This document shows positions 520 to 37,800 of a stretch of 64,000 bases of DNA, in pieces (positions within the stretch are counted from its first letter, which is position 1; each line of letters opens with the position of its first letter). This DNA comes from Eopsaltria australis (Eukaryota > Chordata > Aves > Passeriformes > Petroicidae). The notes under the pieces are model-generated. The model was not told the origin of the DNA. It saw nothing but the letters and a program-made list of their open reading frames with translations, and ran no database searches. The stretch lies in assembly GCA_034509425.1 (NCBI GenBank), contig JAVTVJ010000439.1, forward strand, positions 62,001 to 126,000, in the 5' to 3' direction. A program made the position numbers and the translations under genes.

Positions 520-672
520 TGCTGCCGTGTGATCTCAGCTTCCCTAATCAGTGTTGAAGAGGATAAGGAAAGACAAGGAAAGTGTCCTTGGGGAGGCAGC
601 ACATGGAGGAGGAAAAGCCACCAAGGAAGTAAACACAGGTGTCATCAGTCCCAAACAATAACCTGCCATGGC

Positions 673-680
673 TATAAAAA
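673..680 (+). promoter_or_regulatory. TATA box of the retroviral promoter
   Basis: TATAAAAA preceded by GGC lies about 120 bases upstream of the leader splice donor. Initiation would be expected near 700-705. The aligned position in the 3' flank reads GGTAAAAG, not a TATA box. Confidence 0.6.
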
Positions 681-794
681 TCACCGGGCTGAGACTTCGT
701 GACCACCTTTACCTTAAAGGTGCCGGATCTGCTGGATCTCTGCAGAGACCATCTCCAAGCTCCTGGGACTGCCGGAACATTCAGCCAAGGATTG

Positions 795-800
795 GTGAGA
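795..800 (+). promoter_or_regulatory. Candidate leader splice donor
   Basis: GTGAGA follows GGATTG and fits the donor consensus. With the acceptor ending at 6487 it would make a subgenomic env message with a leader exon of about 90-100 bases. The motif also occurs in the 3' flank as GGATTGGTGAGG, so it was part of the ancestral LTR or its edge. Confidence 0.5.
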
Positions 801-840
801 TCTTATTATTGGGGTCCTACTCTGTCTCTCCTTTGCTTCA

Positions 841-1087
841 CCCGCTCCCGAATCCCTTCCCCATTCCTTCCCCGGGAGCCGGCGGCTCGCGGCAGCTGCC
901 GGCTCGGCCGCAGCCTCCAATTCCCACCTTCCCCTTCCCTTGTGCCCAGGCTCGGTGTCCCCCAGGGGATTTTTGGAGGGGTGGGTTGTGGGGTCGCAGC
1001 CTTGCTCTGTGGAGGGGTTGGCAGTGCTGGTGTGTTATGGTAGTTTTGCCCTGAGACGGAGCCGTCTCAGATCTCGTCTCCTTCACT
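841..1087 (+). other. GC-rich structured leader before gag
   Basis: The start of this stretch is strongly CpG-rich compared with surrounding DNA. GAGCCGGC at 876-883 is the reverse complement of GCCGGCTC at 898-905, and the palindrome GGCAGCTGCC spans 891-900. A second hairpin, CTGAGACGG-AG-CCGTCTCAG, occupies 1051-1070, ending 17 bases before the gag ATG. A primer-binding site should lie here if the element is a conventional retrovirus, but I could not name one. Confidence 0.5.
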
Positions 1088-2785
1088 ATGATGAGCGACA
1101 TCGTTAGCAGCTGGAAGCTGGAGCAGTTTGTGCTCCAGAAGTGTCTCCCCCCAATTTGGTCACCGGGGTCTTTCCAGGGCCCGGACGCGTACCAGCAGCT
1201 GTGCCAGCAGTGGGAGAGCTGGTCAGAGGAGAACAAAAAGCCCAAACCCACTAACAAGTGTAAGAAGCGAGCGGCTTTGCAGGGTTTGCTGATGGTAGGC
1301 AGGGAGTTGTCCAGGCTCCTGAAGGATGCTCTTGAGAATGTGCAGACCTTGGAGCAGGCCAAGGAGGAGCTCAAAGTGCAGGTGGACAACCTGCGGGCGG
1401 AGGTGCAGGGCTTGTGCGGGGACTCTCTGCGGAGCGCGGTGGAGATCTCCCGGCTGGAGAGCAAGCTGGGCTATGAGAAGCTGAAAACGGAGGAGCTGAA
1501 GAAGGAGGTTGGCAAGTGGATCGGGGAGACCCACGATGCGCAGAGCGCGGTGCGGGCGGTCCTGCAGGACGTCCAGCGGGACCGGGGCACTGGCCCTGAC
1601 CACAAGGTATGCCATGCCAAGATCCAGGAGCTGGAGGCAGAGCTGGGGGTGTCAAGGGGCATTGTGGCTGCCATCAAAGGCAAGAGGCCCCCGATCGGGA
1701 ATGGTGAAGGGGAGGACTCCCTGGACTTGCACCCGCCCCACTATGATTATGAGGATGATGTGTGGGGTGCTAACGGCCCCACCAGGCCGTCCCCCTATGC
1801 TCCTCTGCGGGAGGAGGTGTGCCAGATGCAGCTAGGGGAGGTAGAGGCTTCCAAAGAGAAAAAGGTCCCCCACGATGAGCCAGTCAGCCATGTCCCACTC
1901 CAGCCCATAGACACCAACAGGCCTGTGGTTTGGTTTACCCCTGAGCAGCTCAAGACAGTGGGGAAGATGCTGGGGCCCCTGACAAAGGAGACAGCGATTA
2001 ACTGGCTGTCCAGGGTCCAGCGTCTGCCCAAGTGCCAGAGTGGCAGCTTTGTGAGTGACCTGATAGACATTGTGAGAAAGTGCATGAAGCCAGATGATTT
2101 CGCAGCGCTGCCAGGGGATGTGCAGATGGGCAATGTCCAGGACATTGGGGATGTCCAGCTGGCCGTGCTGAAGGTGTTCTTCCCAGAGGTCAACCCCTTA
2201 GTGCTCTTCCACCAGGAGAAGCAAAACCCCGAGGAGAGGCCCGATGCCTATATTAACCGTAAAAAGATGCTCTACCAGATGGCCGGGCTGCCTGGCTCAA
2301 AGGACTCCCCCACTGATTTTGACAGGCCTGAGTTCAAGGAGCCTCTGGTGGTGGGGCTGACACCCCCACTGCGGGTGATTGCTGGTGGGGATGCGGCCAA
2401 AAAGCCTCTGTCGGAGCTGGAGCAGATCCTGACCCAGAATTTTGAGCTGCAAAAGCAGGCATTCCCGGGATACCTGTTGGGGGGGAAGAAAGGGAAAACC
2501 TCAGCCATGTCTTTCCAAAATCCAGGGATGAGAAAAATGCAGGGAGACAACCGAAAAGATCCTGATGGCAAGGGGGGGTTGGGGAAGGAGAACCAGCAAG
2601 GGCTGAGGTTTCAGAAGTCCAACCCTTGGCGGGCTGAGCTGAGGAAGCGCTTGATAAAATACGAGAAACAGGAGGACATTGATGGCTTGCCGGATGCGGA
2701 GCTCTTCCAAAAACTGGCCCTGCACGAGGCCAAAAAGCACAGCAGCTCCCACCCCATTGACCCGGGGTCTAAGGCTCAGCAATAG
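1088..2785 (+). CDS. gag: Retroviral Gag polyprotein, complete frame
   Basis: This 565-codon frame begins at tandem ATGs shortly after the leader hairpin. Residues about 58-160 are rich in Leu, Glu and Lys with heptad spacing and are probably a coiled coil. An acidic/Pro-rich linker follows, with PPHY at residues 216-219 matching the PPXY late-domain pattern that recruits NEDD4-type ligases in other Gags. Residues about 275-460 look like capsid, with a Q-E-rich stretch near 376-395 in the position of the major homology region. The C-terminal region is Lys/Gln-rich and basic but has no Cys, so no CCHC zinc knuckle is present. The stop is UAG, with pol in the same frame immediately after. The call rests on position, architecture and these weak motifs. 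Confidence 0.85.
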   Translation: MMSDIVSSWKLEQFVLQKCLPPIWSPGSFQGPDAYQQLCQQWESWSEENKKPKPTNKCKKRAALQGLLMVGRELSRLLKDALENVQTLEQAKEELKVQVDNLRAEVQGLCGDSLRSAVEISRLESKLGYEKLKTEELKKEVGKWIGETHDAQSAVRAVLQDVQRDRGTGPDHKVCHAKIQELEAELGVSRGIVAAIKGKRPPIGNGEGEDSLDLHPPHYDYEDDVWGANGPTRPSPYAPLREEVCQMQLGEVEASKEKKVPHDEPVSHVPLQPIDTNRPVVWFTPEQLKTVGKMLGPLTKETAINWLSRVQRLPKCQSGSFVSDLIDIVRKCMKPDDFAALPGDVQMGNVQDIGDVQLAVLKVFFPEVNPLVLFHQEKQNPEERPDAYINRKKMLYQMAGLPGSKDSPTDFDRPEFKEPLVVGLTPPLRVIAGGDAAKKPLSELEQILTQNFELQKQAFPGYLLGGKKGKTSAMSFQNPGMRKMQGDNRKDPDGKGGLGKENQQGLRFQKSNPWRAELRKRLIKYEKQEDIDGLPDAELFQKLALHEAKKHSSSHPIDPGSKAQQ

Positions 2786-2850
2786 GGCTGCCAGGCACCC
2801 GCATCGCCCCTTTTTGTGGCACCGATTAAGACCGATTTGTGGGGGCGCCC
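2783..2850 (+). promoter_or_regulatory. Candidate UAG readthrough signal between gag and pol
   Basis: Gag ends in UAG followed by G, and the pol frame continues in the same phase with no stop. Nothing requires a frameshift. Downstream, CGCCCC at 2805-2810 can pair with GGGGCG at 2842-2847, a candidate stimulatory stem. Stop-codon readthrough is the known gag-pol strategy of gammaretroviruses; its use here is inferred. Confidence 0.55.
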
Positions 2851-5800
2851 GATAGTTGATGCAACTATTGGAGGAGGGGTGCTTGGACAAGTGATGTTAA
2901 TTGATACTGGTGCCTCTTATTCAATTCTGAATGTGGCCCCCGGCAGAGCCGGGATCTTCCAAACCTCTGAAATTATTGAACTGACAGGGCCGAATGGCCA
3001 GAAATCCTCAGTGCCCTTCACAGGGCCCGTACCCTTTGAAATTGGGGCTGCCAAAGGGTCTGAAAAATTTGGGAAAATGGAAATGAAAGGAAAGCCAGGA
3101 ATTTTAGCCATCTCTGCCCTGACAAAGATGGGGGTGGTGGTGGACCTGGCAAACCAAGCATTGTTACATTGCCCACAAATTGATTTGCCCGTCATCCCGG
3201 CAAGCCACAGGGTGATGTCAGTGAAAGCCCCTGAGGTCCTGGTGCACCCTGAGTGGGAGCCCCGGGTGAAACGGGTCACAGAGCAGTTCCCCCAGGTCTG
3301 GGCAAAGAGCAAGCTGGACTGTGGGCAGATTGATGCTGCTGTGTCAGTCAAAGGGCTGGATCCGCCTCCTCAACTTCAGCCCTGGTACCCAACTGAGGCT
3401 GAAGACAGCCTGTGGGACACAGTCAAAACCTTGCTGGACCAGGGCATGCTGGTGGAGCAGCAGAGCCCCAGCAATGCCCCGGTGTGGCCCCTGAGGAAAG
3501 CAGATGGGAAAATGTGGAAGCTGACAGTTGATTTCAGCATCCTGAACCAAGTCACCCCAATGCAGACCTCCACAGTGGTCAAGTATCCCAACATCATGGC
3601 AGCCATCTCCCGGGGGTCCGAGTGGTTCTCAGTGCTCAGCCTGACCTGCCCATCATTTGCCATCCCCTTGCACCCCAAGTCCTGGCACAAATTTGCCTTC
3701 ACAATTCGAGAACGACAATTTGCTTTCACCAGAGTCCCTCCAGGTTTCCACAATGCCCCTGCCATCTGCCATGCCCATGTGGTGAGGATGTGGGAGCAGC
3801 TCAGCCACCGGGAGAGCGTGCTGTCCTGTGCTGGTGATGTCCTCATCCACACTCAGACAAAGGAGAAGAACCTGGAGGTGCTGGCAGAGGTGCTGGGGGC
3901 TGTCCAGAAGACAGGCTTCAGGATCAGCCCCACAAAGGCCCAGCTGTGCTGGAAGGAGGTCTCCTTTTTGGGGGTGACCCTGGGGGAGGAAGGGCGCTCA
4001 CTGGAAAAGCAGAGGGTTGAGCTCATACAGAAGATGTCGGCACCATCCGATGTCACTACCCTGAGGTCCTTCCTGTCTCTCCTGAGGTTGTGCCGTGAGT
4101 TCATTGAGGATTATGCAGAGAAAGCAACCCCCCTTTGCCACCTCCTGAAGAAGAACATCCCCTGGGAATGGGGGCCAGAGCAGGACGAGGCAGTGAAGAC
4201 CTTAAAGGAGAGTGTGGCACGAGCCCCCATGCTGGTACATCCTCGGGGGGACAGACCCTATGTTCTGCAGCTGGCCAGCACAGGGAGGGGGCTGCAGGCC
4301 ACCCTGGGCCAGCAACACAGTGCCAACCTGCTCCCTGTTGCCCATGCCTCGCGTCTGCTGACGCCACTTGAGCAACAGTTCAGTGATTATGAGAGGGAGG
4401 CTTTAACCTTAACCTGGGCCCTGCAGCACTGGGAGTACCTGGTGGGGTCAGCCCCAGTGCTCCTGAGGACCTCCTGCACCCCAGTGAGGTACCTCTTGTT
4501 GGGAAAGGGGGATGAAGGTCCCCTGTGCCACCCCAGAATGGCCAACTGGGCGTTGGCATTGATCAACAAGGAGGTCCCTGGTGACCCCTCACCTGGTGCC
4601 TACAGGGTGGTGATCAGTGGAGAGAGGGATGGGGAGGAGCTGGGAGTCTCCCTTGCTGACCCCAAGCCATGGCGGGCACCCCTGTTTGAGAGCAGCCTCA
4701 GCTTGGAGGAGGCCAAGCAGAGAGGCTACGTTGTGTGGTTCGTAGATGGGTCCAACTACCATGAGGAAGGGGTGCCCTACACGGGCTATGCCGCTGTCAA
4801 CCGGGGCACTGGTGAGGTGGTGAAGGGGAAGTGCCTGCCACACTCCATCCAGGCTGCTGAGTTGGTGGCCGTGATGGCCGCCCTGGAAAACACGCCCCCA
4901 GACCAGCCCCTGGCCATATTTTCAGACTCGGGTTGGGTGGTGCGTGTGGCACTGGAGTGGCTGCCCCTCTGGAGGGAGAGGGATATGCAGTCTGCTGATG
5001 GCAAGCCTGTCACCTATGCCAAAAAGCTGCTGTACCTTGCCAGGCTGGCAGAGCAGAGGGCATGCCCAGCCCAGATCATTAAGGTCAAGGCCCACAGGAA
5101 GGGAACAGAGGAAGCCAAGTGGAACAAGGAGGCAGATACCAAAGCCAAGCAAGGTGCAAAGGAAGGGCTGATGTGGAAGGCCAGCAAGATATCAGAGATT
5201 GGCCCAGTGTCAGTGGCTCCCAGCAGGCACTGGGAGAGTGTGGATCTGGTGGGCTTGCAGGCACAGGACCCCAGGCTCCGGGAGCTAGCGCAGGGCAGGG
5301 AGTACAAAGGGTGCAAGGTGTGGAAAGATGTCTCAGGGCTGGTGCTGGCACGGAGGGAGGGGGCAGATTTCCCAGTCTGGGTGGTGCCTGAACTGGTCCG
5401 GACGGAGCTGGTGGCCCTGGCTCATGAGCAGGGGCATCTGGGGACAGACAAGACCATGGTGAGGCTGCAGGGTGCTGGGTGGTGGCCTGAAATGAGAGAG
5501 GATGTGGAGAGGTATGTCAGCAATTGCCTGACGTGTGCAGCCAACAATCCCGATGCCAAAACAGCCAAAGCCGTCCTGGGCCACCAGAGGGTTTCTGGGC
5601 CATGGAGCAAGTTGCAGATGGAGTTTATTGGCCCTCTGCCCCAAACTGCCCAAGGCAATAAGTACTGCCTAGTGGTCAGTGATATCTTCACCAAGTGGGT
5701 GGAAGCATTCCCAGCTCGAAACAACACGGCCACTGCAACTGCAAAGATTCTGGTAGAGCACATCTTCTCCCAGTGGGGCATCCCAAAGGAGATCCACTCA

Positions 5801-6451
5801 GACCATGGCCAACGCTTCATTGGGGAAGTTACAAAAGGGGTGTGCCAGGCCCTGGGAATCAAGCAAAAGCTTCACATCACAGGGCATTTCCAGAAGCCAG
5901 TGTCAGCAGAGGGTCCCAACCAGCCACTGAAGACAGCACTGAGGAAACTTGTGAGCCAGCAAAGGAAAGACTGGGATCGTAAGCTCCCACTGACCTTGCT
6001 GGCACTGAGGGGGGCTCTGGCATCTCGAGCACTTTCTCCCCCAAAGTTTCCTCCTGCAAGAGACCCAAAGCTTCTGGAACACTGGTGGCAAGGAGGGGAG
6101 CCCCCTGATGAAATGCAGCCCCGCGTGCTGATGGATAGGTGGGTCCAGGACATGCTGAGGATGGTGTCAGCCACCTACCACCAGCTCGCCTCAGTGCAGG
6201 AGACACACATCCCCAAGATGGATAAGCAGCTGGGAGTGCTCCTGCGCCCCGTGGAGTGGAACACGGGGGACCTGGTAATATACCGAGGGGTTAGGGAGAA
6301 GAACCAGGTGCTGGAACCCCAGTGGATGGGGCCTGTTAGGGTTGTGAACAAGGCCAGCCCCTCTGTGTACCAGGTAGAAATCAGAAAGGGGGCGAAAAGG
6401 CAGGAGAAATGGTTCCATTCTTCACAATTAAAAGCATGGAAGGGAAACTAA
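2786..6451 (+). CDS. pol: Retroviral Pol: protease, RT, RNase H, integrase
   Basis: Numbering is from the first codon after the gag UAG; the first start-like codon is GTG at 2816. The frame is about 1,221 codons with no break. Protease has DTGAS at 40-44. In RT, the motif A aspartate position holds Ser285 (FSVLSL), and the YXDD position reads C348-A-G-D351, so polymerase activity is probably lost. RNase H keeps an acidic set D654, E692, D714 and D784. Integrase keeps the zinc-binding set H880, H884, C914 and C917. In its core, D1006 and E1042 are spaced exactly D-35-E, but the first acidic position is E946 in place of Asp. A dead polymerase inside a fully open frame in an old insertion is unusual and suggests selection for something other than replication. 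Confidence 0.95.
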   Translation, partial: GCQAPASPLFVAPIKTDLWGRPIVDATIGGGVLGQVMLIDTGASYSILNVAPGRAGIFQTSEIIELTGPNGQKSSVPFTGPVPFEIGAAKGSEKFGKMEMKGKPGILAISALTKMGVVVDLANQALLHCPQIDLPVIPASHRVMSVKAPEVLVHPEWEPRVKRVTEQFPQVWAKSKLDCGQIDAAVSVKGLDPPPQLQPWYPTEAEDSLWDTVKTLLDQGMLVEQQSPSNAPVWPLRKADGKMWKLTVDFSILNQVTPMQTSTVVKYPNIMAAISRGSEWFSVLSLTCPSFAIPLHPKSWHKFAFTIRERQFAFTRVPPGFHNAPAICHAHVVRMWEQLSHRESVLSCAGDVLIHTQTKEKNLEVLAEVLGAVQKTGFRISPTKAQLCWKEVSFLGVTLGEEGRSLEKQRVELIQKMSAPSDVTTLRSFLSLLRLCREFIEDYAEKATPLCHLLKKNIPWEWGPEQDEAVKTLKESVARAPMLVHPRGDRPYVLQLASTGRGLQATLGQQHSANLLPVAHASRLLTPLEQQFSDYEREALTLTWALQHWEYLVGSAPVLLRTSCTPVRYLLLGKGDEGPLCHPRMANWALALINKEVPGDPSPGAYRVVISGERDGEELGVSLADPKPWRAPLFESSLSLEEAKQRGYVVWFVDGSNYHEEGVPYTGYAAVNRGTGEVVKGKCLPHSIQAAELVAVMAALENTPPDQPLAIFSDSGWVVRVALEWLPLWRERDMQSADGKPVTYAKKLLYLARLAEQRACPAQIIKVKAHRKGTEEAKWNKEADTKAKQGAKEGLMWKASKISEIGPVSVAPSRHWESVDLVGLQAQDPRLRELAQGREYKGCKVWKDVSGLVLARREGADFPVWVVPELVRTELVALAHEQGHLGTDKTMVRLQGAGWWPEMREDVERYVSNCLTCAANNPDAKTAKAVLGHQRVSGPWSKLQMEFIGPLPQTAQGNKYCLVVSDIFTKWVEAFPARNNTATATAKILVEHIFSQWGIPKEIHSDHGQRFIGEVTKGVCQALGIKQKLHITGHFQKPVSAEGPNQPLKTALRKLVSQQRKDWDRKLPLTLLALRGALASRALSPPKFPPARDPKLLEHWWQGGEPPDEMQPRVLMDRWVQDMLRMVSATYHQLASVQETHIPKMDKQLGVLLRPVEWNTGDLVIYRGVREKNQVLEPQWMGPVRVVNKASPSVYQVEIRKGAKRQEKWFHSSQLKAWKGN

Positions 6452-6467
6452 CGGGGCTGGAGAGCCC

Positions 6468-6487
6468 GCCTTGCTTATGTTTTGCAG
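6468..6487 (+). promoter_or_regulatory. Env splice acceptor
   Basis: A pyrimidine-rich tract ending TTATGTTTTGCAG precedes the env ATG at 6498 by ten bases and falls in the 46-base gap after the pol stop. It matches the acceptor consensus well and would produce a spliced env mRNA with the donor at 795. Confidence 0.6.
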
Positions 6488-6497
6488 ATAAAGGAAA

Positions 6498-9122
6498 ATG
6501 GAAGGCGATTGTGACCAGCGGGAAGGGCGAACTTCGTGGCATCACCAGCCCTGTTTGTGCTGCGGGGAAAATACTTTCAAATTTGTGATTGCAGGATTTA
6601 CTTTGCTTTCTGGTATGTGCATAGTGCTGAGCACCCAATGTGTCCAACCAACCCATCAGCACCTTGGACAAAATGTCATGAATTCTCACTTAGAAAGGCA
6701 CCTTGATACACAGGCCACAGCCCAGCACAGGGTTAGGAGGCACACAAAAATTGGGACTGATTGGCCCTGGTCCCAAGCTTACATAAAACATACAGGGATC
6801 ATGGGATTAAATTCTAACAAAGGCTTAAATTTGTCAACAGTGGTTATGCACGGGGCAGAGGTGTACTTGGAAAATGAATGGGGCTGGGATAGCATAAACA
6901 GACTTCCACAGCTGCTGGGGAAGGTGGGACAGGAAATAAAGGTTGGGTGCAGGGTAATCAATGGATCCACTCACCAGCGAGTAACTCAAATCTCTGTCAC
7001 TGAAGTAAAAACTAAGAAGAATCAGAAAAAAATCTGTGCTGTGGAAAATTTGGACTGCTGGTACAATTTTACTTTGGTCCAGCCAGTCTTTGTGGTCTGC
7101 CTCTGGGCACACAACAGTGTGGGTCTGTCCTTTAAATTCAAGATCAGCACCAATGCACCTTCCTTTGCTGCCATTAAGAGCTCAAAGTGCCATTTTTTGG
7201 CCTGGCATGCAGACCCTTATGCTGAAATTGGCAACAAGTTGAAATTGGAAATTAAATACTCCCAAGAAAGTGTAACTGACCCAATGCAAGTTGATGGCAC
7301 CACCGTGACTGTCACAGCCCCTACCAGCCGCAGGTGGATCATTCCACTGACCTGCCTCTGTGAGAGCAAAACCCTTGATAGATCTGAATTAGATGCGGAG
7401 GCTTCATGGTATAATCAGGATTATGGACGCTGCCCACACCTGATCATAACCCTCCAGGTGTGGTGTCAAGGAAACCTGAGCGTAGAAATGTCCCCCCAAC
7501 TTGGAGGAAAGTGGTGGATAGGAGGCCCCGAAGGATTTAAAAAAGAATTCGCCATCACTGCTGTCTTGCCCCCTTTTATTTCCAAAATAGGTCCTTATGT
7601 AGTGAAGCAAAATCACATCCAGGAGCTGCTGACAGGGCCTGTCCGGTCACTGAAGAAGGTGGTGCTGTCTCTATCCACTGTAAATATTTCCTCTGTCAGA
7701 CCACAGTGTGCCCCCTTCCTGTCCACTCTCCACACTGGCTGGCTGGCCTGGCTCCACAGCCGCTCCATCCAGGCCACCCGGGCCAGGAGAGACCTGCTGG
7801 CCACAGCACTGGGAGGAGGAGGTGCTGGCCTGGGAGTCCTCAACAGCATGAATGCTGAGGTCTTGGCAAACAAGCTGGAGACCGTCACCTCGGGCGTGCA
7901 GAGCCTCCTCAAACCCCTGAATTCATCCCTGTCTAGCCTTGGCATGGGGCAGTGGCTTGTGTCAGAGGTGCTGCCCACCTGGGAAAAAATAAGTGAGAAA
8001 GACCATCAGGTGCTGCTGCGAGCCCTGGGCATCGAACAAAGTAACGTCTCTCTTGCTCTTAGCTGCATCCAGGCCCAGATGTGGGTGCAGAGTGTCATTG
8101 CAGGTATCCTGAGAGACGGCGACAACGGCGTCCTGCCCACCGAGATCCGAAAGATCGTGTGGGACGTGGCCACGGACACGGAGCGGCAGCTCCAAGCCTG
8201 GTGGAGGCTCGTCAACTTCACCCACGACCGGGCCCTCAACGCGGTCATTGCCCACGTCCTCACTGTGGCCGAGGCTCGCATTGAAAAGGTCTACCCCATC
8301 GTGGCCCTGGGGGTGAACACCAATGGGTCTGTGGTCTACCCCCTGGATCACCGCATGTGGGCCAGGGTGTCTGGTGGGAGGTGGCAGACGGTAGATTTGG
8401 AAGCCTGCATTTTGGAGAGGGGGCTGGGATTCATATGTGAAGATGATGCCCTTAAGGCGAGCGATGTGTGCTTTGACACCAAAGAAGGGGTGTGCCACTT
8501 TGAGATCAACCCCCAGAGCAGCAACAAAACCGTGCTGGTGTATGTAGGGAAAGGCTGTGTGTGCTTCAGAACGATGTGTAAATACGTGCAAATTAACGAC
8601 GCTTATAACCAGACCGTGTTTAACGACTCGAATATGTGTGCTTGCAATGTAGCTACTATTAGAGGCTGTGATTTTGTGTATAAGCCACCTGTGTTTACTA
8701 GCCAGTTGCTAATCAGAAACTATACCTTGTATCGTAGCATAACCCCTACCCCCATCGGTATGGATTTATCACTTGTAAAAGAAATGTTAGAGCATGCAAA
8801 TTTGCAGCAGCTGCTAGAAAATGCCAAGGCCGAAGCTAAAAAGATCTTAATAACCGTTCACCATGATGGTACAGTTATAAAACAGGTAATGGAACGGATT
8901 AAGAAGGCGGGAGAACACCATTGGTGGGAGGTTTTTTTCGGCTGGTCCCCCACGGCCACTGGCATTTTCAACACGCTGCTGCACCCCGTTGTAGTTATCC
9001 TGCTGCTGCAAATCTGTGTGTGCTTTGCCATGGTAGCCACTTGTTACTGGCTGAGGCAGGTGAAGCTCCGCTTTGACAACCAGGTGAAAGGAGCTGGGCA
9101 GGCCAAGAGCCTCCTACAGTAG
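6498..9122 (+). CDS. env: Retroviral envelope glycoprotein, complete frame
   Basis: This 874-codon frame encodes a class-I-type envelope. An N-terminal hydrophobic stretch at residues 27-45 would be the signal peptide, after a long Cys-containing leader. SU follows, ending at R428-A-R-R431, which fits furin cleavage. The new N-terminus is Gly/Ala/Leu-rich (about 433-450), like a fusion peptide, followed by helical heptads. A hydrophobic span at 829-850 (HPVVVILLLQ onward) and a tail of about 24 residues end the protein. About 13 N-X-S/T sequons are visible. TM is long (about 443 residues) and has no adjacent CC, so the CX6CC motif of gamma-type envelopes is absent. The membrane topology looks complete. 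Whether it is expressed or fusogenic cannot be judged from sequence. Confidence 0.92.
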   Translation: MEGDCDQREGRTSWHHQPCLCCGENTFKFVIAGFTLLSGMCIVLSTQCVQPTHQHLGQNVMNSHLERHLDTQATAQHRVRRHTKIGTDWPWSQAYIKHTGIMGLNSNKGLNLSTVVMHGAEVYLENEWGWDSINRLPQLLGKVGQEIKVGCRVINGSTHQRVTQISVTEVKTKKNQKKICAVENLDCWYNFTLVQPVFVVCLWAHNSVGLSFKFKISTNAPSFAAIKSSKCHFLAWHADPYAEIGNKLKLEIKYSQESVTDPMQVDGTTVTVTAPTSRRWIIPLTCLCESKTLDRSELDAEASWYNQDYGRCPHLIITLQVWCQGNLSVEMSPQLGGKWWIGGPEGFKKEFAITAVLPPFISKIGPYVVKQNHIQELLTGPVRSLKKVVLSLSTVNISSVRPQCAPFLSTLHTGWLAWLHSRSIQATRARRDLLATALGGGGAGLGVLNSMNAEVLANKLETVTSGVQSLLKPLNSSLSSLGMGQWLVSEVLPTWEKISEKDHQVLLRALGIEQSNVSLALSCIQAQMWVQSVIAGILRDGDNGVLPTEIRKIVWDVATDTERQLQAWWRLVNFTHDRALNAVIAHVLTVAEARIEKVYPIVALGVNTNGSVVYPLDHRMWARVSGGRWQTVDLEACILERGLGFICEDDALKASDVCFDTKEGVCHFEINPQSSNKTVLVYVGKGCVCFRTMCKYVQINDAYNQTVFNDSNMCACNVATIRGCDFVYKPPVFTSQLLIRNYTLYRSITPTPIGMDLSLVKEMLEHANLQQLLENAKAEAKKILITVHHDGTVIKQVMERIKKAGEHHWWEVFFGWSPTATGIFNTLLHPVVVILLLQICVCFAMVATCYWLRQVKLRFDNQVKGAGQAKSLLQ

Positions 9123-9318
9123 TCAAGGGCAAGACTGGGTTGGCCTCTGTGTTTGCCACCAAGAAGATCTTTTGGCTCCGCTGTTGGCTGCAACCCAGTA
9201 GGCGTTGAGCGGTGGGGACACACGCCATGCCAGACCTTGATGAGAGGGATGGCCTTCTCTGTCACCAGAGGGCCACCCAGGAGGGGAGGACAGGCCAAGC
9301 AGCCTGCAGATGGCACGA
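9123..9318 (+). other. Retroviral 3' untranslated segment
   Basis: A short non-coding stretch lies between the env stop and the CR1 fragment. No second gene was recognised. No clear polypurine tract was identified immediately before the 3' LTR. Confidence 0.4.
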
Positions 9319-9515
9319 GTCACAGAATGGTTGAGGTTGGAAGGGACCTCTTGAGGGGTTTCATGTAGTCTGAACCCACCTGCTCAAGCAGTGTCACCTG
9401 GAGCAGATTGCCCAGGACTCTGTTCAGCTGGGCTTTGACCATCTCCACAGATGGAGACTCCACAGCCTCTCTGGGCAAAGCTGTTTCATTGTTTGATCAC
9501 CCTCATAGTAGAGAT
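9319..9515 (-). repeat. CR1 LINE 3'-end fragment
   Basis: CACAGAATGG followed by GGTTGGAAGGGACCTC, then the typical complement of CR1 with CTGCTCAAGCAG and GGAGACTCCACAGCCTCTCTGGG. Orientation is minus because these are complements of the CR1 tail. It lies between env and the 3' LTR, so it probably inserted after the retrovirus. Confidence 0.88.
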
Positions 9516-9567
9516 GCAAATTTAGCATAAGTCACTTGTTTTTGAACTTCCTATCCCCAAGTAGTAA

Positions 9568-9995
9568 TGTTAAGAAGCTCCTTTTGTGTGATTTAAGAGT
9601 CCTTAAGCCGGGGTAAGGAAAGCCAAGGACAATGTCTTTGGAAGGAAAGAGAAGGAAATGTAACACCTGAGCTTGGAAGAGCACCCATTGAAGTCAGCAG
9701 GGGTGTGAACAGCCTCAAGGACATGGAAAGATGGTAAAAGATGAGCAGAAAAGAAGACCCTGTAGTCACCATGGACTTTAAGGAACTGAATCCACATGGA
9801 CCTTTGCAGCACCACCTACTTCCAGGTTCCCAAGACTCCCAGTACGTCTGGCCAGCGGATTGGTGAGGTCTTGTTTTTGGAGCCTGGACATCACTGCTTT
9901 GCTTTGCTTTGCTTTCCTTACTTGTGCATGTAGTCAATAAATCTGTCTGTTAGAGAATGGGCTGTCTGTTCAATCACTGCCTCACTCACTACCCA
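9568..9995 (+). repeat. 3' LTR-derived flank
   Basis: It aligns in blocks with the 5' flank and, along most of its length, with a decayed copy at about 17455-17862. It holds four GCTTT units (about 9895-9915), the poly(A) signal, and TCTGTCTGTTAGAGAATGGG, which matches the 17.8-kb copy. The position aligned with the 5' TATA box is not TATA-like here. Boundaries are approximate. Confidence 0.72.
9936..9941 (+). terminator. Retroviral poly(A) signal
   Basis: AATAAA lies in the 3' LTR, followed by T/G-rich sequence (TCTGTCTGTT). No counterpart exists in the 5' flank, so full-length transcripts would not be cut prematurely. Confidence 0.6.
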
Positions 9996-12900
9996 GGCTT
10001 GTACCTTTGGCTGCACAGGGGAAGAGAAATCCTGGTGAAAAGAAAAAAATGTGGGTTTTTTTCTCTTTTATAAGCCCACATCTCTCACTTGCTTTTTGTC
10101 TGCAGAATATTCATTCAAACACAAAGATTTCTGCCTTGTGCTGCAGAACGAGGCTCTGAGCTGATGCACAAACCCACTCCCCTCTCACTCTGCCTCTTCC
10201 CACCTTCGTCTCTCCCCTGCCTCTGAATACAGAAAGAGCCTCAAAATACACATGGGGGGCTCAAACAATTTTAAAACATTGGCAGTTTCAAAAACTAAAT
10301 TAACCGCCTCATTTCCAGCCCATGTTCAATTTCATCTCAAGGTGCTGCACTCTCCGAGAACGGGGCAGGGAGTGGGGGGGTTACACAGAAAAAAAAAAAA
10401 AACCTTTGCAATTCAGGTTGAATTAAATAGATAAAGTCATTTAACACAGCAGAAACTGAGTAAAAACTGAGAAATTAATTTAAAACCTGCTTTTCATAAT
10501 CACCAGGCTGAGACATGCAAAGAAATATCATGTTGCTGCAGCATAAGTGTTTTAAAGAAATGCAAAACTTTGCTAAAGATACTTCCCCTTAAAAATACAC
10601 ATTATAACTGAGCTCATGAAAATATAAATAAATAAATCATGGTCTAAACCCACAGAAATCCATTTTTTCCTCTCCAAGAACCACAAATACACCCTTGGGA
10701 TGGGAGGTTGAACTCTCCCTTCACCCTTCCCACCTGGCTGGGAAAAGGCCAGTACCTGGTCCCCTCTAAGCTTTGCTGTTCCCTTCAGTTTCCCCATCTC
10801 AAAGCCTCACAGAAAACACATGGTTATTTTGGTTAAAGCACCTTTCTTACTTGCTAACACCTCACATGTTTCGTGAGAATTAATTCCTCAGTGAATATTA
10901 CACTTTGACACCACTACATTTATTACACTTACACATAGCCTTTACCCCTTAAACCTGTTTTGGGACCCTGTAGCAGAAGAAGAAACCACAGAAAATTCAC
11001 ATTATGCACTCTTCAGTCCCAAATATGCCCTGTGAGTGTGGCCCAGGATGGGTTAGCCCTGGGATGATGTTATAGCCATAAGGAGAGAGTGGTTCCTACA
11101 CCTACACACAGGTTTTAGCTGAGCACAGACCCCTGCACGTGCATCCTCTGCAGCTGCACCACGAGTTTTGCTCCCTTTACTGTCATTTGTTTATCACCAC
11201 AGACCAAGGAGGGCTGTTTTTATAGTAGCAGCATTGTTGTGGCTGTGACACACTTGGGGTTGCAGCCTGGGGGCAGGACCTCAGGATTTGTCTGCTTTTC
11301 CAGCAGATTCAGTAGATCCCAGAAAGGATTCTGCCCAAACTTGCCTGCTCTTCTGAGTCAAATGGGTAACACTGGTGGATTTATTCCCTGGTGTTTTTGC
11401 CCCTATCCTCTCTGCTTAGGGACAGAGGGGACTCTGTGAGCTGTGGCATGTAGAAGCCCCCCATCCATCCACTATGCTGTGGCTTCCCTCAACTCCAGCT
11501 AGGCAGATCAGAGGCAGATCTAGGCAGATCAGAGGCTGGCTCTAGCCCAGCCTGGCTGCCTCTGTGTCAGGCTGTGAGCAGGTCACTAGCCCCACTGACC
11601 TGGCCCCATGGCAGTAATTCAGACTAAATTATGAAAAATTAGAGGCTAAGGTGCTACTGAGAAGCAGTCTTGACTCAACCTGAACAAAGTGATGTGAAAA
11701 GAAGCATTGGTGGAACCCCAAACCTGCTGGGGTCCTCTGAAGACTCTAAAAAATGCCCAAAAGGGATGGAAATGTACCAAACACATAATTTAACCCAAGG
11801 GAAGTGCTGATCTCTGGATAAATCTCACAAGACTGCAGAGATATTTCTGTTATTTCTGTTGTGTACCTGGTGTGATGGACATTTCCTGCTCCAGCAGAGG
11901 ATCCTGCTGGTTTTTGAAGTGCCCTACAGTCACACAGAGGTGCCACAGCAGGTCCTCACTGCATTTGAGCAGACACGGAGTCTCCATCTCCTCCTGAGCA
12001 CAGGTGAGTGGCTGTGTGGGGATATCTGATCGTGGCTGCACATGATGGGGTCACCTCCAGAGCCAGCCCTGGGGTAAGGACCTAACAGCTACCCTGAACC
12101 TAAACATCCCACATGGGCTCAAATCAAATGCAGAAGGAATTTGCACCTGGGTGTTTCCCTGGCTAGGCTTGTACCGGAGCATGTTGCTCAGAAAAAGCTC
12201 AGACTTTGATTTCCCAGCCCCAAACAGATCACAGCATTTGTATTTTCACAAAAACGTCCAACAGAGCTTGGAGATTTTTGGGGTGGTTCTGCCTCTGAAG
12301 CCCTAAATACCATCAAGGTTCATTTCCTACCTCTTTGGGCAGGGCCAGCTGGGCAGATTCCTCTGTCAGAGCTGCCTTTCAAACCCATCATCAGCATTTT
12401 AACCACAGTCACTCTCTAGTGTAAACTTGGATTTTCAGACTCGAGGCTTGACCACGGCTCTTTTTCAAGTCTTTCCTCCTCTTTCTTCCCTCTTTCCCAC
12501 CTCCAACTTTTATCCCTTCCTGCACAACCTGCTATCCACCTTCCTTAACACCACTTTTCTTGCTTCTCAAATGTGACTGTCAGTCCAGATCATCCTTCAG
12601 GAGCAAGAAAGCCCCAGGGACAATGACAAAAGTACAGTGATATAACCTGGCTGATCACAATTTGTTACAGATGGGCAAGATGGAAGAAATGAGCTTCAGG
12701 CAGAGGAATAAGGAAGAGCATCAGGGCTGAGAGGCACAATGAGGAGAATTGGTTTGAGAGCTAAAATGCTGGGTAGGTCATCTGGAATGTGGGACAGATT
12801 ATGATTTGTGGTGATTTTTTTCTCTTTCATGGAGAGAAATTCTGTGATGTGCCAGCATTCAGCATGAAGGGAGATGCTTGATTTATTCCTCACAGCAGCC

Positions 12901-31800: not shown

Positions 31801-34800
31801 CAACAAGTTACATGTGGGAGCTTTGACAAGCTGCCAGGCAAATAAAATGCTTACCCAGAAAGTCAGGACTGTTATCACTGCTGGTTGCCTCTTCCACTGC
31901 TGGGAGCTGTTTGGAGGGGCTCTCCCATCACCCCACTATGGATCCAATCCAGGGCAACTGGATATCATAGCACAGACTCCAACCTTATATATGTAGATAG
32001 AGAGAGATAGACAGACAGACAGACAGATAGATAGATGAGAGGAGCTGTCAAAGGAATTAGGACCTGAGGCTGTCACCTAGCTTCACTCTGTTGATGTCTG
32101 TCTTTCAGTAGGAGGTTCAGTTTGAGGAAGTGTGGAGATTTTATTTTGCTAGCAAAAGAAGAAATGTTTTCTTTGACAAAACTCCACCATCAAGTGTCCC
32201 TGCAGAGCCTAACACTGGATTTCTGTGTCAAGCCGAGTGAATCCAACACTAAATGCTGATATAATCAATGGAACGCTGTAATGTGCAGTGGACATAGACA
32301 TTTAAGCTGAATGACTTTCCAGACCCCATTGAATGTGGTGGTGGAATCTCTACTCAGACACAGGGGGGACAAATGAGCAGTCTAGGCGTCTAAATCTACA
32401 GGCTGCATCCCACTCTGGAAGCCCCTGGAGGTCACAGGACCCCAAAGGTCCCTGAAGGCCCCTAAAGTCATTAAGGCTGGTGAGGGCTGGTACTTTTCAG
32501 CCCAATGATGGTCATCTGAGCAGCAGTTTCTTACACAGAGCCAGAGGCTTTTAATCTAGAAGTACATAAAACTCAAAGAAAAATGAGGCTCCTATAAACA
32601 CCAGCCAGCTCATAGATTTTAAGTCCAGGGTATGACTCACCAGGCCAACTCTGGCACTGCAGAGGGGTTGGAGTAGATGACCTTTAAAGGTCACTTCCAA
32701 CCCAAACCATTCTGGTTTTATGATTCTGTAACTTTGTTGCTTAACCCAGTGTTTATTTGGTGTTGATTCCTGTATCAAGCCTGTTGCTTCTACCTGAATG
32801 AGAGCAGGCTGCTTAAAGAGGTGATGAATACTGATGGAAAGGGGGTGCAGAACTCTCTGTGGTTTCCAGGATAAAGTGTAGACACAGCCTGATCTCTGTT
32901 TGATTCAGCCCAGGTTGTTACCAGCTGAAATACCACTCAGAAAACACCAGTGTCAGGCCTGCTTTGCCCTAAGGGAGAAGCAGGAAGCTGGAAATGCATC
33001 TTCTCAAGGGATTCTTTGCTTTTGTTGGGGTAATTCTTCAATTTGCAAAGGCCCTGAGTCTCTCACTGAAGCTTTCTATAAACCTTCCTCCCTCTTTGCT
33101 TTCTCCTCAAAGATCCCAGGTCTCCTTTCCTTCATCCCCTTCACAGGGATGGCATTCCCAGAGCCTGGGCTCCATGTACTGTATGTGACCTTCTCCTCTG
33201 ACACATCAGTTGGCTCTCAAGCCTCTAAGAGTTTACATTTCCTATAAGCAAGGGGATGCCTCATATGTCTCTGTCAGCCTTTGCCAAGAGAAGGTTTGCT
33301 CTTTAACCAGCAGGATTTGAGGGACAGTAGTCAAGGGAAACAGTGTCAAGTGGTGGAAAGCCAAGATCACCTGAAGGTCTGCTTGATGAGTGATCTGCAA
33401 ATTGCTAAAAAACTGAGATCATGCAGTTTTTGCACTTCTTTCTGATGTATGAAAGAGGCCGAAAACAGCTTCCAAAGAAACATGGGGAGCTCTGTTATTG
33501 TAGTTAGGATGATCTAGAGATATAAGAAATCAAAAATTTTCCATAACAGCACGACTGAAAAGATTATAGGAACAAATTCTTTGAACTGACTCCAATAAAA
33601 ACTGAGAGCTAATGTGATTGTATTCACATTTTTAACAATGTTCTGGGGTTTGATTTTTTAATTATCAACTCATTTGTTCAAAAACTTTAATAAAACCTGT
33701 GAGAAAACCTAGCTTTTTTCAGAAAACCTCACCCACACCTCTAAGAAGAGACTGGGAAATCTTGTAATGAAAGACTAAATATAAAATAGTCAAAAATTAG
33801 TCTGAAATAAATCCTCCTCTCAAATCAGAAAAGCTAGGATATGTCATCCCTGACATTTTAAAGGTGAAACTGCTTTTTAAAGGAACAAAACCATTCTTAT
33901 GCTAATAATTCATTTTTAGAGAGCTGATGTATTTCCTTAGGCTGTTGTCTTTGATGAAGTGTTACAGCCTCTGCTTTGGAAACCAAGGAGACTTTGCCTA
34001 CATCTTAAGCTGTTCTCTGGAGCAGACTGAGGAGAGAGATGCCCTACCAAGCAATAATAAACAGGATTTAGGTGTAAGTTAGGCCATCTGTGTGTATCAT
34101 CTGTGATGTGCAGAATAGCATGAACCCACATTAAACAGTTTGTGATTTACTCACTGTGTCCATGAGCAGCTCAATGAAATCCTCCTCTGTTCTTTGCACC
34201 AAAGCCATCTCACCTGGCTTTTCCAGGCCAGTGAATGAGATGTTGTGGGTGCTGGATGGCAGATGTTTGGGTTGTGCATGTCTCAGAGATGAGGTTGATA
34301 CATTTCCTGTGGCAGTGCTCAGCCCTCTGTCCTGGCAGGTCCAACAGACCTTAATCTGTCTGAATCCCGTCCAAGCAGCCACAAGAGTTGTTTCTTGTGC
34401 TTTCACTGTGAGCTGTGCTTGCAGGAGCCATGGCTTAGCTGTCAGTGCTCTGTTACCCCTTGCATTTGTTGGCTGGCATGATGAATCTATGCTTTTGTCA
34501 CTGTAGCTGCATTCAGGATTAGCTGTGGTTGTGAGTCTCACCAGGGCACGTGAGCCCTTCAGAGTTCAGCTCGGTTGGTGCTGGGCTGGGAGGCCAAGGA
34601 AACCTGAGGCTCCCCAGAAAGTCATGCAGTGAATCAGTCAGTGGCATCTGCCCTCTAAGTCAGTCCTAAATCCCTGGCCTGGCAAGCTTATGCTGGGCTG
34701 GAGGCATCACTGCACTAAAGATCCTGCTTTTGGGCAGGGTGAGAACCAGTTCTCACTATGTGTGGAGGATGGCAGTGATCACCTCAGAGGCTGTGGTGTG

Positions 34801-37800
34801 CACAGACACAGCACAAAGCAGTTGTTTTGTCCCTGTGGTGAAGCAAGGGAAGCTGAGCAGCAAGACACAGAGGGTTCAGACCTCCAGGGCTCCTGGGTAG
34901 GTGCCACAGCAGAAATCACCTCCCCATGGTTCTCTCCAGGAGCTTTCAGAGCTGCCTGGCCATGCAGCACCCTGACCATGTGAGTGTGGGGTGCTCTCTG
35001 TACCAGGAGGGGAGGCCTGGGACACCTGGAACCATTTGGGGTTGTGTTAAACACTTTTAGACCAGACAGAGAAGGTTTTATAGACCAGTGATTCCACAGG
35101 CTGAGAGACTTAGGTTTAATCTTGCTTGGAGAACCTTAACACTGCAGAGAGGATGAGAGAGGAGGCTGTGAACCACTGCAAGCCTTTGGTGTCCTGGGTG
35201 TTTTCTGTCTCCAGGACAGGTGGGATCAGAGCCCAGCCCAGGGAGAGCCCCACTGTGCCCTTCCCCTTTGGGGCATCCACCTCTGAGCTCCTCTGGCACT
35301 GCAGGAGTTTGCACAGCTGCCAAGGGGCACCTGGGAGATTTAGGTGCTTGCAGATGCTTAAGCAATGTTAGTTGAAGATTTAAGGAATAGATCTCAAATA
35401 CTTGTGTCTCCTGATTTTTACTTTGCTTAGAGTTGAGCCCAGGTCTCTGGAGTCCTGATAATACACAGTATCATAAATCCAGTGTTCTTTGAAACCATTT
35501 TGGGGCATGGAGGATCCCATGATGGTTTGTAAGAGCTGCAGTATTTCTTACACCTGCCAGTCAGATTAGCAGTGAGTAATCGTCTCTGCAGTTTCAATAC
35601 CACATGGGCTGCTCCTTTGATTTCTCAGGAAGTCTTGTATAACATTCTTGGTGCATTTCTGCATCTCCTCAGAAATTAGGGATTTCCAGAGCTGGCAGTA
35701 AGTTCTGCCAGCCAGGTTTGCTTTGGAAAATCTGGACACCCTATGCAATAAACAGCAAAATGCAAAGCCAGCATTTCAGTACTTTTTTATTCTCGAGGAG
35801 CAAACTGAGAGGAGAGAAGCACCTGTTGGAGGACTTGGGTTTTTCTGCATGGTGTTCCCTTCCAACTTGTCATTCCTCTCCACAAGGAAACTTTTTTTCG
35901 CTTTCTGACTGCCCTTAAAACACCCAGGAGGCAGGAGGGACCCTTCCCCATGTGAGATATCTCCCTGTGCTTCCTGGCACCATGTAACCATGTGGGTTTT
36001 ATCAGCTCCCTGGCTCTGCTTTGCCTTACAAGGAGTGTAATCTCTCTTGCACCTCTCTGGCCCCCTGACCTGACAGCTGACAGAGCACAGCCTCACATTT
36101 CTCACCAGCTCTCAGCTCTTCCATTTGACACAGTGGAGCTGGCTGCATCCCCTTCCCAGGCACATTTCCCCCTGCCCCACCCCAGGTGCTTGCCTTGCAC
36201 TGGGCTCCCTCCAGCACTGCTCACTTTCCTAAACCTCATTTTCCAAACCTCATTTTTGCACATGGTTTTGTCTGCTCTAGGCCATCCTGCTTTTAAATCA
36301 GTGCCTTCTTTATCCCACAAGAGCCAAGGCACAGGAGAGATTATGTCAGCAGCTCACATAATATTTTCAGAGAAAAGGAAATGCATTTTAAATACACTGT
36401 GACATAAATATAAATATAAATACAAATATAAATATAAATATAAATACAAATATAAATATAAATATAAATATAAATATAAATATAAATATAAATATAAATA
36501 TAAATATAAATACAAATAGTATAAATATAAATATAAATATAAATATAAATATGTTTGTGTGTACCTATATATATATATACAGTCTTTGGGCTGGATTCTC
36601 TGGGGCTGTGAGCTGATTCCTGCTTGTGGCACATCCTCCTTAGGCGGATCATCAATAATTTTTGTATTTCCCCATGCCTCAGTTTCCCCACTCTGCACTG
36701 TGCACAATGATAAATGTTCCTTTGATCATGAAGCCTCTGTGGTCCCTGAGCTTCTTGCAGTGAGGAGAACCTCCCTTTTGGCACCAGCAGTGGCTGAGTG
36801 ATGGGAATTTAAATTCTCCTGTACTGTCGAGCCTGGCTGGAGGCCCAGATAAAGTGGGCGGTTGCCTGGAGAAGCAGACAGCTGGAGACACCAAATCAGG
36901 CAGTGAAAAGCCTTCTGTAGCAGCAAGGGGAAAATCCCAAAATTTTTTGGACAGCAGACCAAAGTGTCTCCCCCTCCTTCTCAGTGAATTAAGATCTAGG
37001 AGCTGCAGCTGGACACATGAAGGGGCATATGGGGGAGGTTCCCCCTCGGTCTGGGACTCTGGACGCTCTCAGAGGGAGGATGAGAGGTCAGACTTCTTCA
37101 TCAGCATCCTCTGACTCACTCCTCCCCCAGCCTTGGATATAGTTAAACACATACAATTGTAGGATGTCTCTTGGAAATCCAGTTTTGAATCCCCCAAAGA
37201 TAAAATACCCCTTTTGAAGGGGTCCCACTTATTCCATGATGATTTAGCTTACAGCAACAGCATTGGGCAAGAACATGAGGATTAAGCTGGGTGGGGTGTT
37301 TCTCCATCCCCCCCAAAAATCCTGAGGGGTTCATTTTAGCGGCTGCAGGGAGCCCAGGGGTGCAAAACTGGCAGGATTTTGGCTGGGCAGAGCTGGCCCT
37401 CACTGATGCAAGGTGTCCCTCTGTCCCTGCAGCCTGACACACGTCATCTGCCACACGTGCTTCAAGCGGCAGGAGCGGCTGCACCGCTGCGGGCAGTGCA
37501 AGTTCGCCTATTACTGTGACAGGACCTGCCAGAGAGCAGCCTGGCTCAACCACAAAAATGAGTGCTCTGCCATCAAGAGGCACGGCAAGGCACCCTCTGA
37601 AAACATCAGGTGAGAGCTGGCCCCCCTGTGACCTGGGAGAGGACAGGGCATCCTGTGGCAAGGAAGAGCTGGGTGGCCTGATTTGGGCAGTTTGGAGGTG
37701 GGAGAAGGTTTAGGATAGGCCAGGAGCATCCCTGAGATGAAGGGATGGGGACCTGGAGTAGCATCAGTGGTGCAAAGAATGTGCTTCTCTTTGGGTTTTT

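Follow-up and report, generated by a model that had tools for sequence, protein, structure and literature searches.

The 64,000-nucleotide stretch of Eopsaltria australis DNA analysed here (assembly GCA_034509425.1, contig JAVTVJ010000439.1, positions 62,001 to 126,000; hereafter the window, with positions counted from its first letter) contains, at about 520-9995, an endogenous retrovirus (ERV) whose gag, pol and env genes are all open. The element is very probably the orthologue of Ovex1 in this oscine passerine and a replication-dead gene set retained by the host, a high confidence that covers identity and retention and leaves aside the role of the products. The locus is already known: Ovex1 was first described in chicken in 2009, and host retention was proposed in that same report (Carré-Eusèbe 2009, PMC2717909). 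The original prediction, made from the letters alone, had treated the locus as a new candidate and mentioned ovex1 only as something that may be related to it or have set a precedent. This framing was wrong: the locus is an Ovex1 orthologue, for which the 2009 paper had already drawn the same conclusion and given ratios of nonsynonymous to synonymous substitution rates (dN/dS).

In the window, gag spans 1088-2785 on the forward strand (565 amino acids, aa, ending in TAG), and pro-pol follows in the same frame at 2786-6451 (+, 1221 codons), presumably reached by readthrough of the gag stop; it encodes a protease, a reverse transcriptase (RT) with lost catalytic residues, an RNase H and a degenerate integrase (IN). 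The env gene, also named ORF3 (open reading frame 3), lies at 6498-9122 (+, 874 aa), with furin-type motifs RVRR at residues 78-81 and RARR at 428-431 and a hydrophobic membrane span at about 818-853. The three genes add up to exactly 2,660 codons, in agreement with the approximately 2,660 counted earlier without stop or frameshift. No other forward-strand ORF of the 64 kb reaches 200 aa; the element also contains two antisense ORFs, 208 and 209 aa long. Over gag, pol and env, the remaining two forward frames are interrupted by 26-51 stops each. Third codon positions have a G+C content of 0.75 in gag, 0.68 in pol and 0.59 in env, versus 0.44 over all sites of the flank at 10001-36000.

Chicken Ovex1 was reported to encode a Gag of 565 aa closed by an amber stop, a Gag-Pol of 1786 aa and an ORF3 product of 873 aa (874 in zebra finch), to have terminal repeats 73% identical and an antisense CR1-Y4, and to sit between CD8 and SMYD1 (PMC2717909). 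The window agrees with the published element at each point tested. Lengths coincide (565 aa, TAG and 1221 codons, summing to 1786, with an Env of 874 aa), and the published Gag motifs, namely the nuclear localization signal, WMGPVRV and the major homology region, are present, the latter with one residue changed. The comparison with known avian ERVs, ovex1 among them, that the prediction had called for gives 82% identity over 100% of the length between the window Env and chicken LOC422926, while gag is 95% identical to LOC111928306 of Cyanistes caeruleus. SMYD1, which had been noted near the element, is represented by its MYND-domain exon at 37449-37610 (+), on the same strand as the element (best match SMYD1, E 5.3e-30), and this host neighbour anchors the SMYD1 side of the synteny. 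Common to the window and the chicken and zebra finch loci (LOC422925/LOC422926, PMC2717909) are thus the place beside SMYD1, three ORFs of corresponding lengths and the lost RT and IN residues, as well as the TATA box, the splice sites and a CR1 in the 3' untranslated region (UTR). Since ORF lengths, the gag TAG, lost catalytic residues, CR1 motif and SMYD1 all match, the locus is identified as Ovex1 in another species. As a side observation, five of the six species-named Pol relatives are labelled "protein NYNRIN-like" in NCBI and the sixth "hypothetical protein", so that orthologues are hidden from searches by name.

The element is old. Its flanks align at 492-838 and 9554-9904 with 68% identity (223 of the 328 columns without gaps, a further 42 being gapped), a score of 299 and a Kimura two-parameter distance (K80) of 0.42, in line with the 60-70% estimated by eye; the score reached at most 95 in 200 shuffles and 98 among 44 other stretches of the window. 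Neutral mutation simulated at 0.17 substitutions per site, a value below half the K80 of the repeats, produced on average 8.9 stops in gag, 19.8 in pol and 14.2 in env, and none of the 300 runs per gene stayed free of stops, which bears out the expectation that a neutral insertion of such age should have many. A search of the same genome gave a single match for gag, all 46 candidates being scored, and a next pol match of 28% identity, with 38 of 7710 candidates scored; among the candidates scored there is no second close copy of either gene. A recently active, replication-competent ERV that is old in appearance only would account for the open frames, and other ERVs of the same genome do hold an open pol of about 1,173 codons. 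Yet repeats of 68% identity, a single gag match, the loss of RT and IN catalytic positions, and close relatives as distant as kiwi and ostrich leave this explanation practically no probability; the element has neither the catalytic RT residues nor the matching long terminal repeats (LTRs) of a replication-competent retrovirus. The other multicopy pol of this genome deserves mention in its own right: its frame is often 1,173 codons, it is 26-37% identical to the Ovex1 pol by piece, most of the 73 other pol matches are stop-free, and it represents a multicopy, perhaps young retrovirus family.

Retention by selection is supported by the Env sequences. The window Env is 82% identical to those of kiwi and chicken and 79% identical to that of woodpecker, values that exceed those expected under random mutation, namely 44-45% at the divergence of the repeats and, at 0.15 substitutions per site, 73-74% with a maximum of 78% in any run. 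Published dN/dS values between chicken and zebra finch are 0.08 for Gag, 0.18 for Pol and 0.16 for ORF3 (PMC2717909), and 207 sites (18.8%) of an Env alignment were reported to be under purifying selection (PMC5006616). The purifying selection proposed in the original prediction is therefore supported by the three open frames, the Env identities and the published ratios.

Pol catalytic residues were compared in 17 rows, corresponding to the window and P0059-P0074, all hits of at least 79% identity (Grus, Willisornis, Heliangelus, Melanerpes, Ciconia and Struthio among them). Forty weaker hits were left out, 39 at 30% identity or less and Patagioenas P0057, a gene model with pol and env pieces that keeps the RNase H motifs and is devoid of the protease and RT sites. 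The first RT aspartate is lost in 17 of 17 rows (S or C), as is the first D of YXDD (G or S), its second D being kept in 16. The integrase retains HHCC in every row, has E in place of its first D in all 17, and keeps the second D and the E in 16 each. On the other hand, all 14 rows that cover the protease site keep its D, 13 of them within DTG, and the four acidic residues of RNase H are retained in 17, 17, 16 and 17 rows. Most of this pattern had already been seen in two birds in 2009 (PMC2717909). Since two of the three RT aspartates and the first integrase D are lost throughout, what has been retained is a protein set and not a working replication machinery. Co-option of a whole gag-pol-env set, as inferred in the prediction, is supported as far as it could be tested, with this qualification.

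The same losses raise the alternative that the host makes use of Env alone, or perhaps of Env and Gag, with Pol staying open through the common full-length RNA or for some other RNA-level reason. Consistent with it, co-option is described for the env gene in a 2016 paper (PMC5006616), and conservation is comparatively low at RT residues 251-350 (mean pairwise identity by 50-residue block of 0.79-0.80, versus 0.86-0.89 for RT 151-250 and 351-400, 0.86-0.90 for RNase H 651-800 and 0.91-0.92 for 851-950), although the lowest blocks are those of the spacer 551-650 (0.71-0.76), and 801-850 and 1051-1100 are as low as RT 251-350 or lower. Against it, the published Pol dN/dS is near that of ORF3 (PMC2717909), the protease D is kept in every row that covers it, all four RNase H acidic residues occur together in 16 of 17 rows, and 13 of the 16 Pol relatives measure 1188-1214 aa, even if databases favour open frames. 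Use of Env without Pol is thus a serious but rather unlikely explanation, and retention of the three proteins is preferred.

Relatives in palaeognaths, the test left open by the 2009 paper (PMC2717909), suggest how old the insertion may be. The kiwi Env is full-length (874 aa, 82% identical to that of the window) and the ostrich Pol of 1109 aa is 81% identical over 91%, so that Ovex1 apparently originated before crown birds, as judged from these two protein sequences. They appear to be an addition to the 2009 description, no report of a palaeognath Ovex1 having been found in a limited literature search. In the Env tree without outgroup, kiwi and chicken lie on one side, suboscines and oscines on the other, and crane and woodpecker between them; kiwi joins chicken and one further row with support of 100/99, and the window groups with the oscine passerines Cyanoderma, Molothrus and Haemorhous. 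The Pol tree agrees where supported, placing Willisornis with the window and ostrich with two further rows. Repeated insertion of similar viruses in different birds, instead of orthology, might be suggested by the Env relatives found in many birds at 39-55% identity, several of them in one stork species, and by synteny having been checked here in the window only. Nonetheless, the correspondence with bird groups of the Env tree read without outgroup, identical catalytic losses in all Pol rows and the synteny reported between the chicken and zebra finch loci (PMC2717909) make separate insertions very improbable, orthology remaining the better account.

Several points weigh against an orthologous, selectively retained Ovex1. 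Scans for nucleotide relatives among viral contigs (with pol, env and gag) and genome contigs (with pol) found none, and expected identity served in place of dN/dS, a weaker test that assumes the neutral divergence between the compared birds. Protein databases favour open frames and would miss broken orthologues, and kiwi, ostrich and the other rows are known as protein sequences. In the Pol tree, 8 of 14 inner branches are weakly supported, and with an outgroup the Env tree roots beside suboscines, not kiwi, on a branch of 1.15. Two rows deviate at conserved positions, P0069 having DIG in place of the protease DTG and P0066 a V at one RNase H aspartate. Finally, RNA sequencing shows Ovex1 RNA in many tissues, highest in ovary, contrary to the earlier gonad-only view (PMC5006616).

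The homologous flanks delimit an LTR remnant on each side, at 492-838 (+; U3 and R, possibly with the first part of U5) and 9554-9904 (+), coordinates that are alignment ends rather than proven LTR ends. Looser scoring joins 303-1087 with 9314-10189 (score 778 versus a maximum of 641 in 200 shuffles) and is too permissive for setting ends. A TATA box lies at 673-678 (+), as reported in conserved form in chicken and zebra finch (PMC2717909), and homology extends about 180 bp upstream of it, into U3. This differs from the 2009 work, in which only an R-like repeat of 120-122 bp is described and U3 or U5 repeats were not found (PMC2717909). For the spliced env mRNA, exon 1 is predicted at 699-794 (+), ending at a candidate donor GTGAG at 795; its start was placed by comparison with chicken, where the intron begins at +97 (PMC2717909). 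The donor falls within the repeated LTR stretch (direct repeat 789-812/9857-9880, 88%). The second exon would begin at 6488-6497 (+), behind the candidate acceptor TTTTGCAG, with the env ATG at 6498; chicken ORF3 begins 11 bp past its acceptor (PMC2717909). An energy fold predicts a candidate stem after the gag TAG. Downstream of env, a 12-purine run at 9279-9290 (+) is a candidate polypurine tract, the chicken 3' UTR having a run of 13 (PMC2717909), and a polyadenylation signal AATAAA is located at 9936-9941 (+). The CR1 fragment described earlier between env and the 3' flank was recovered as a CR1-type 16-mer without mismatches at 9335-9350 (+), in the 3' UTR, and the fragment probably extends past it. 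Two more CR1-type motifs flank the SMYD1 MYND exon, at 32687-32702 (-, two mismatches) and 45560-45575 (+, one mismatch). A possible target-site duplication, CTGCC at 522-526/9977-9981, spotted by eye, was not accepted, as the flank alignment begins upstream, at 492, and Rfam yielded no match at the gathering score within the window.

From the Env alignment, P0017-P0030 (839-aa rows at 83% identity like P0016) were left out together with P0041 and P0057; the alignment for the Env fold model further omits P0032-P0034, P0050-P0056 and P0058. All 11 orthologous rows have R-X-R-R at 78-81 and RX(R/K)R at 428-431, and 8 of the 13 N-glycosylation sites are conserved throughout these rows. A signal peptide in ORF3 was not found by the 2009 authors (PMC2717909). 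From the starts of ERV relatives, described next, Ovex1 Env may instead carry a hydrophobic leader with a furin-type cut. Env sequences of bird ERVs (kiwi P0035, stork P0036, gull P0040) are about 50% identical over about 55% of the length and share the cleavage site between surface (SU) and transmembrane (TM) parts and a similar fusion-peptide-like start. They differ in that, where their start is present, a plain hydrophobic stretch precedes shortly the common WPWSQA-like stretch, in place of the leader with furin-type site, and in that 110-125 residues of the Ovex1 surface part are missing from 13 of 14 such relatives, and 61 from P0048. In this last ERV Env (Zosterops lateralis), a Cys-containing surface motif that is single in other relatives apparently occurs, by eye, twice in a row.

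Foamy viruses (Spumaretrovirinae) have a splice donor in the LTR repeat and two furin sites that divide Env into leader, SU and TM, and express pol from its own spliced mRNA. Ovex1 shares with them the absence of a Gag zinc finger, the candidate donor within the repeated LTR stretch and two furin-type sites, which would likewise give leader, SU and TM; the Env fold model is too weak to bear on this resemblance. In contrast, its pol stands in frame behind the gag TAG without a spliced mRNA of its own, the chicken mRNAs being full-length and singly spliced, and spumaviruses do not cluster with Ovex1 in the RT tree of the 2009 paper (PMC2717909). According to publications only, CrocERV37-39, similar to SpeV, cluster with Ovex1 in an RT tree, and tuatara SpeV has the RT closest to Ovex1 in the 2009 paper, at 42% (PMC2717909); these are ERV groups or a fragment, with no conserved host locus seen. 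The comparison with host genes leads to syncytins, env genes kept by the host for cell fusion, which resemble Ovex1 in being retroviral and expressed in reproductive tissue and differ from it in that env is kept, whereas Ovex1 retains gag and pol too.

In chicken, Ovex1 transcription starts just downstream of the TATA box and gives the two mRNAs in ovarian cortical and granulosa cells, with left-biased expression in the gonad and expression in granulosa (PMC2717909). The left bias appears in both sexes at embryonic days 4.5-6.5 (PMC10572726), and expression is low in large yellow follicles (PMC8944860). Translation was still to be shown according to the 2009 paper (PMC2717909). To that account can be added a tandem mass tag proteome of chicken follicles that lists protein detection for LOC422926: C7ACT2/LOC422926 is among the top 10 decreased proteins (F6/SY ratio 0.476, P 0.00066), and is absent from the nine proteins re-checked there by parallel reaction monitoring (PMC7367319). 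LOC422926 is the name of the 873-aa chicken Env in the protein search, C7ACT2 being matched to Ovex1 by gene name only.

Taken together, a single retrovirus insertion, apparently inherited since before crown birds, would have been kept as a host gene set, with the old 5' LTR remnant as putative promoter. The full-length mRNA would give Gag and, by reading past the TAG, presumably Gag-Pol, while the spliced mRNA would give Env, which would then be processed. The products, a structural Gag, a protease and a membrane glycoprotein, would act without replication, possibly at the surface of the somatic cells surrounding the oocyte. Ovex1 is thus likely a replication-dead, host-run gene set acting via Gag and Env in ovarian somatic cells. 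Restriction of related retroviruses in the ovary, based on Env and/or Gag, is a tentative leading guess, plausible because Env relatives exist in many birds; the case for a shared receptor is weakened because most of these lack the 110-125 residues of the surface part. A purely developmental or cell-contact role ranks somewhat lower, and particle-like transfer comes third, as a doubtful candidate. In the same doubtful range, Ovex1 might be an assembly-ready, replication-dead particle module that kept Gag, a maturing protease and a cleavable Env and lost reverse transcription and integration before crown birds. In that case, particles made of Gag and bearing Env might be shed by granulosa cells to the oocyte or to cells nearby, and Ovex1 would parallel, with an entire provirus, the domestication of single capsid genes seen in Arc and PEG10.

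Most of the familiar viral genes retained by hosts are single ones. Ovex1 has kept gag, pol and env all open, apparently for roughly as long as living birds have existed, and is expressed in the chicken ovary. With the protease and RNase H residues kept and those of RT and IN lost, the kiwi and ostrich relatives and the protein detection, its translation and purpose are now directly testable in chicken.

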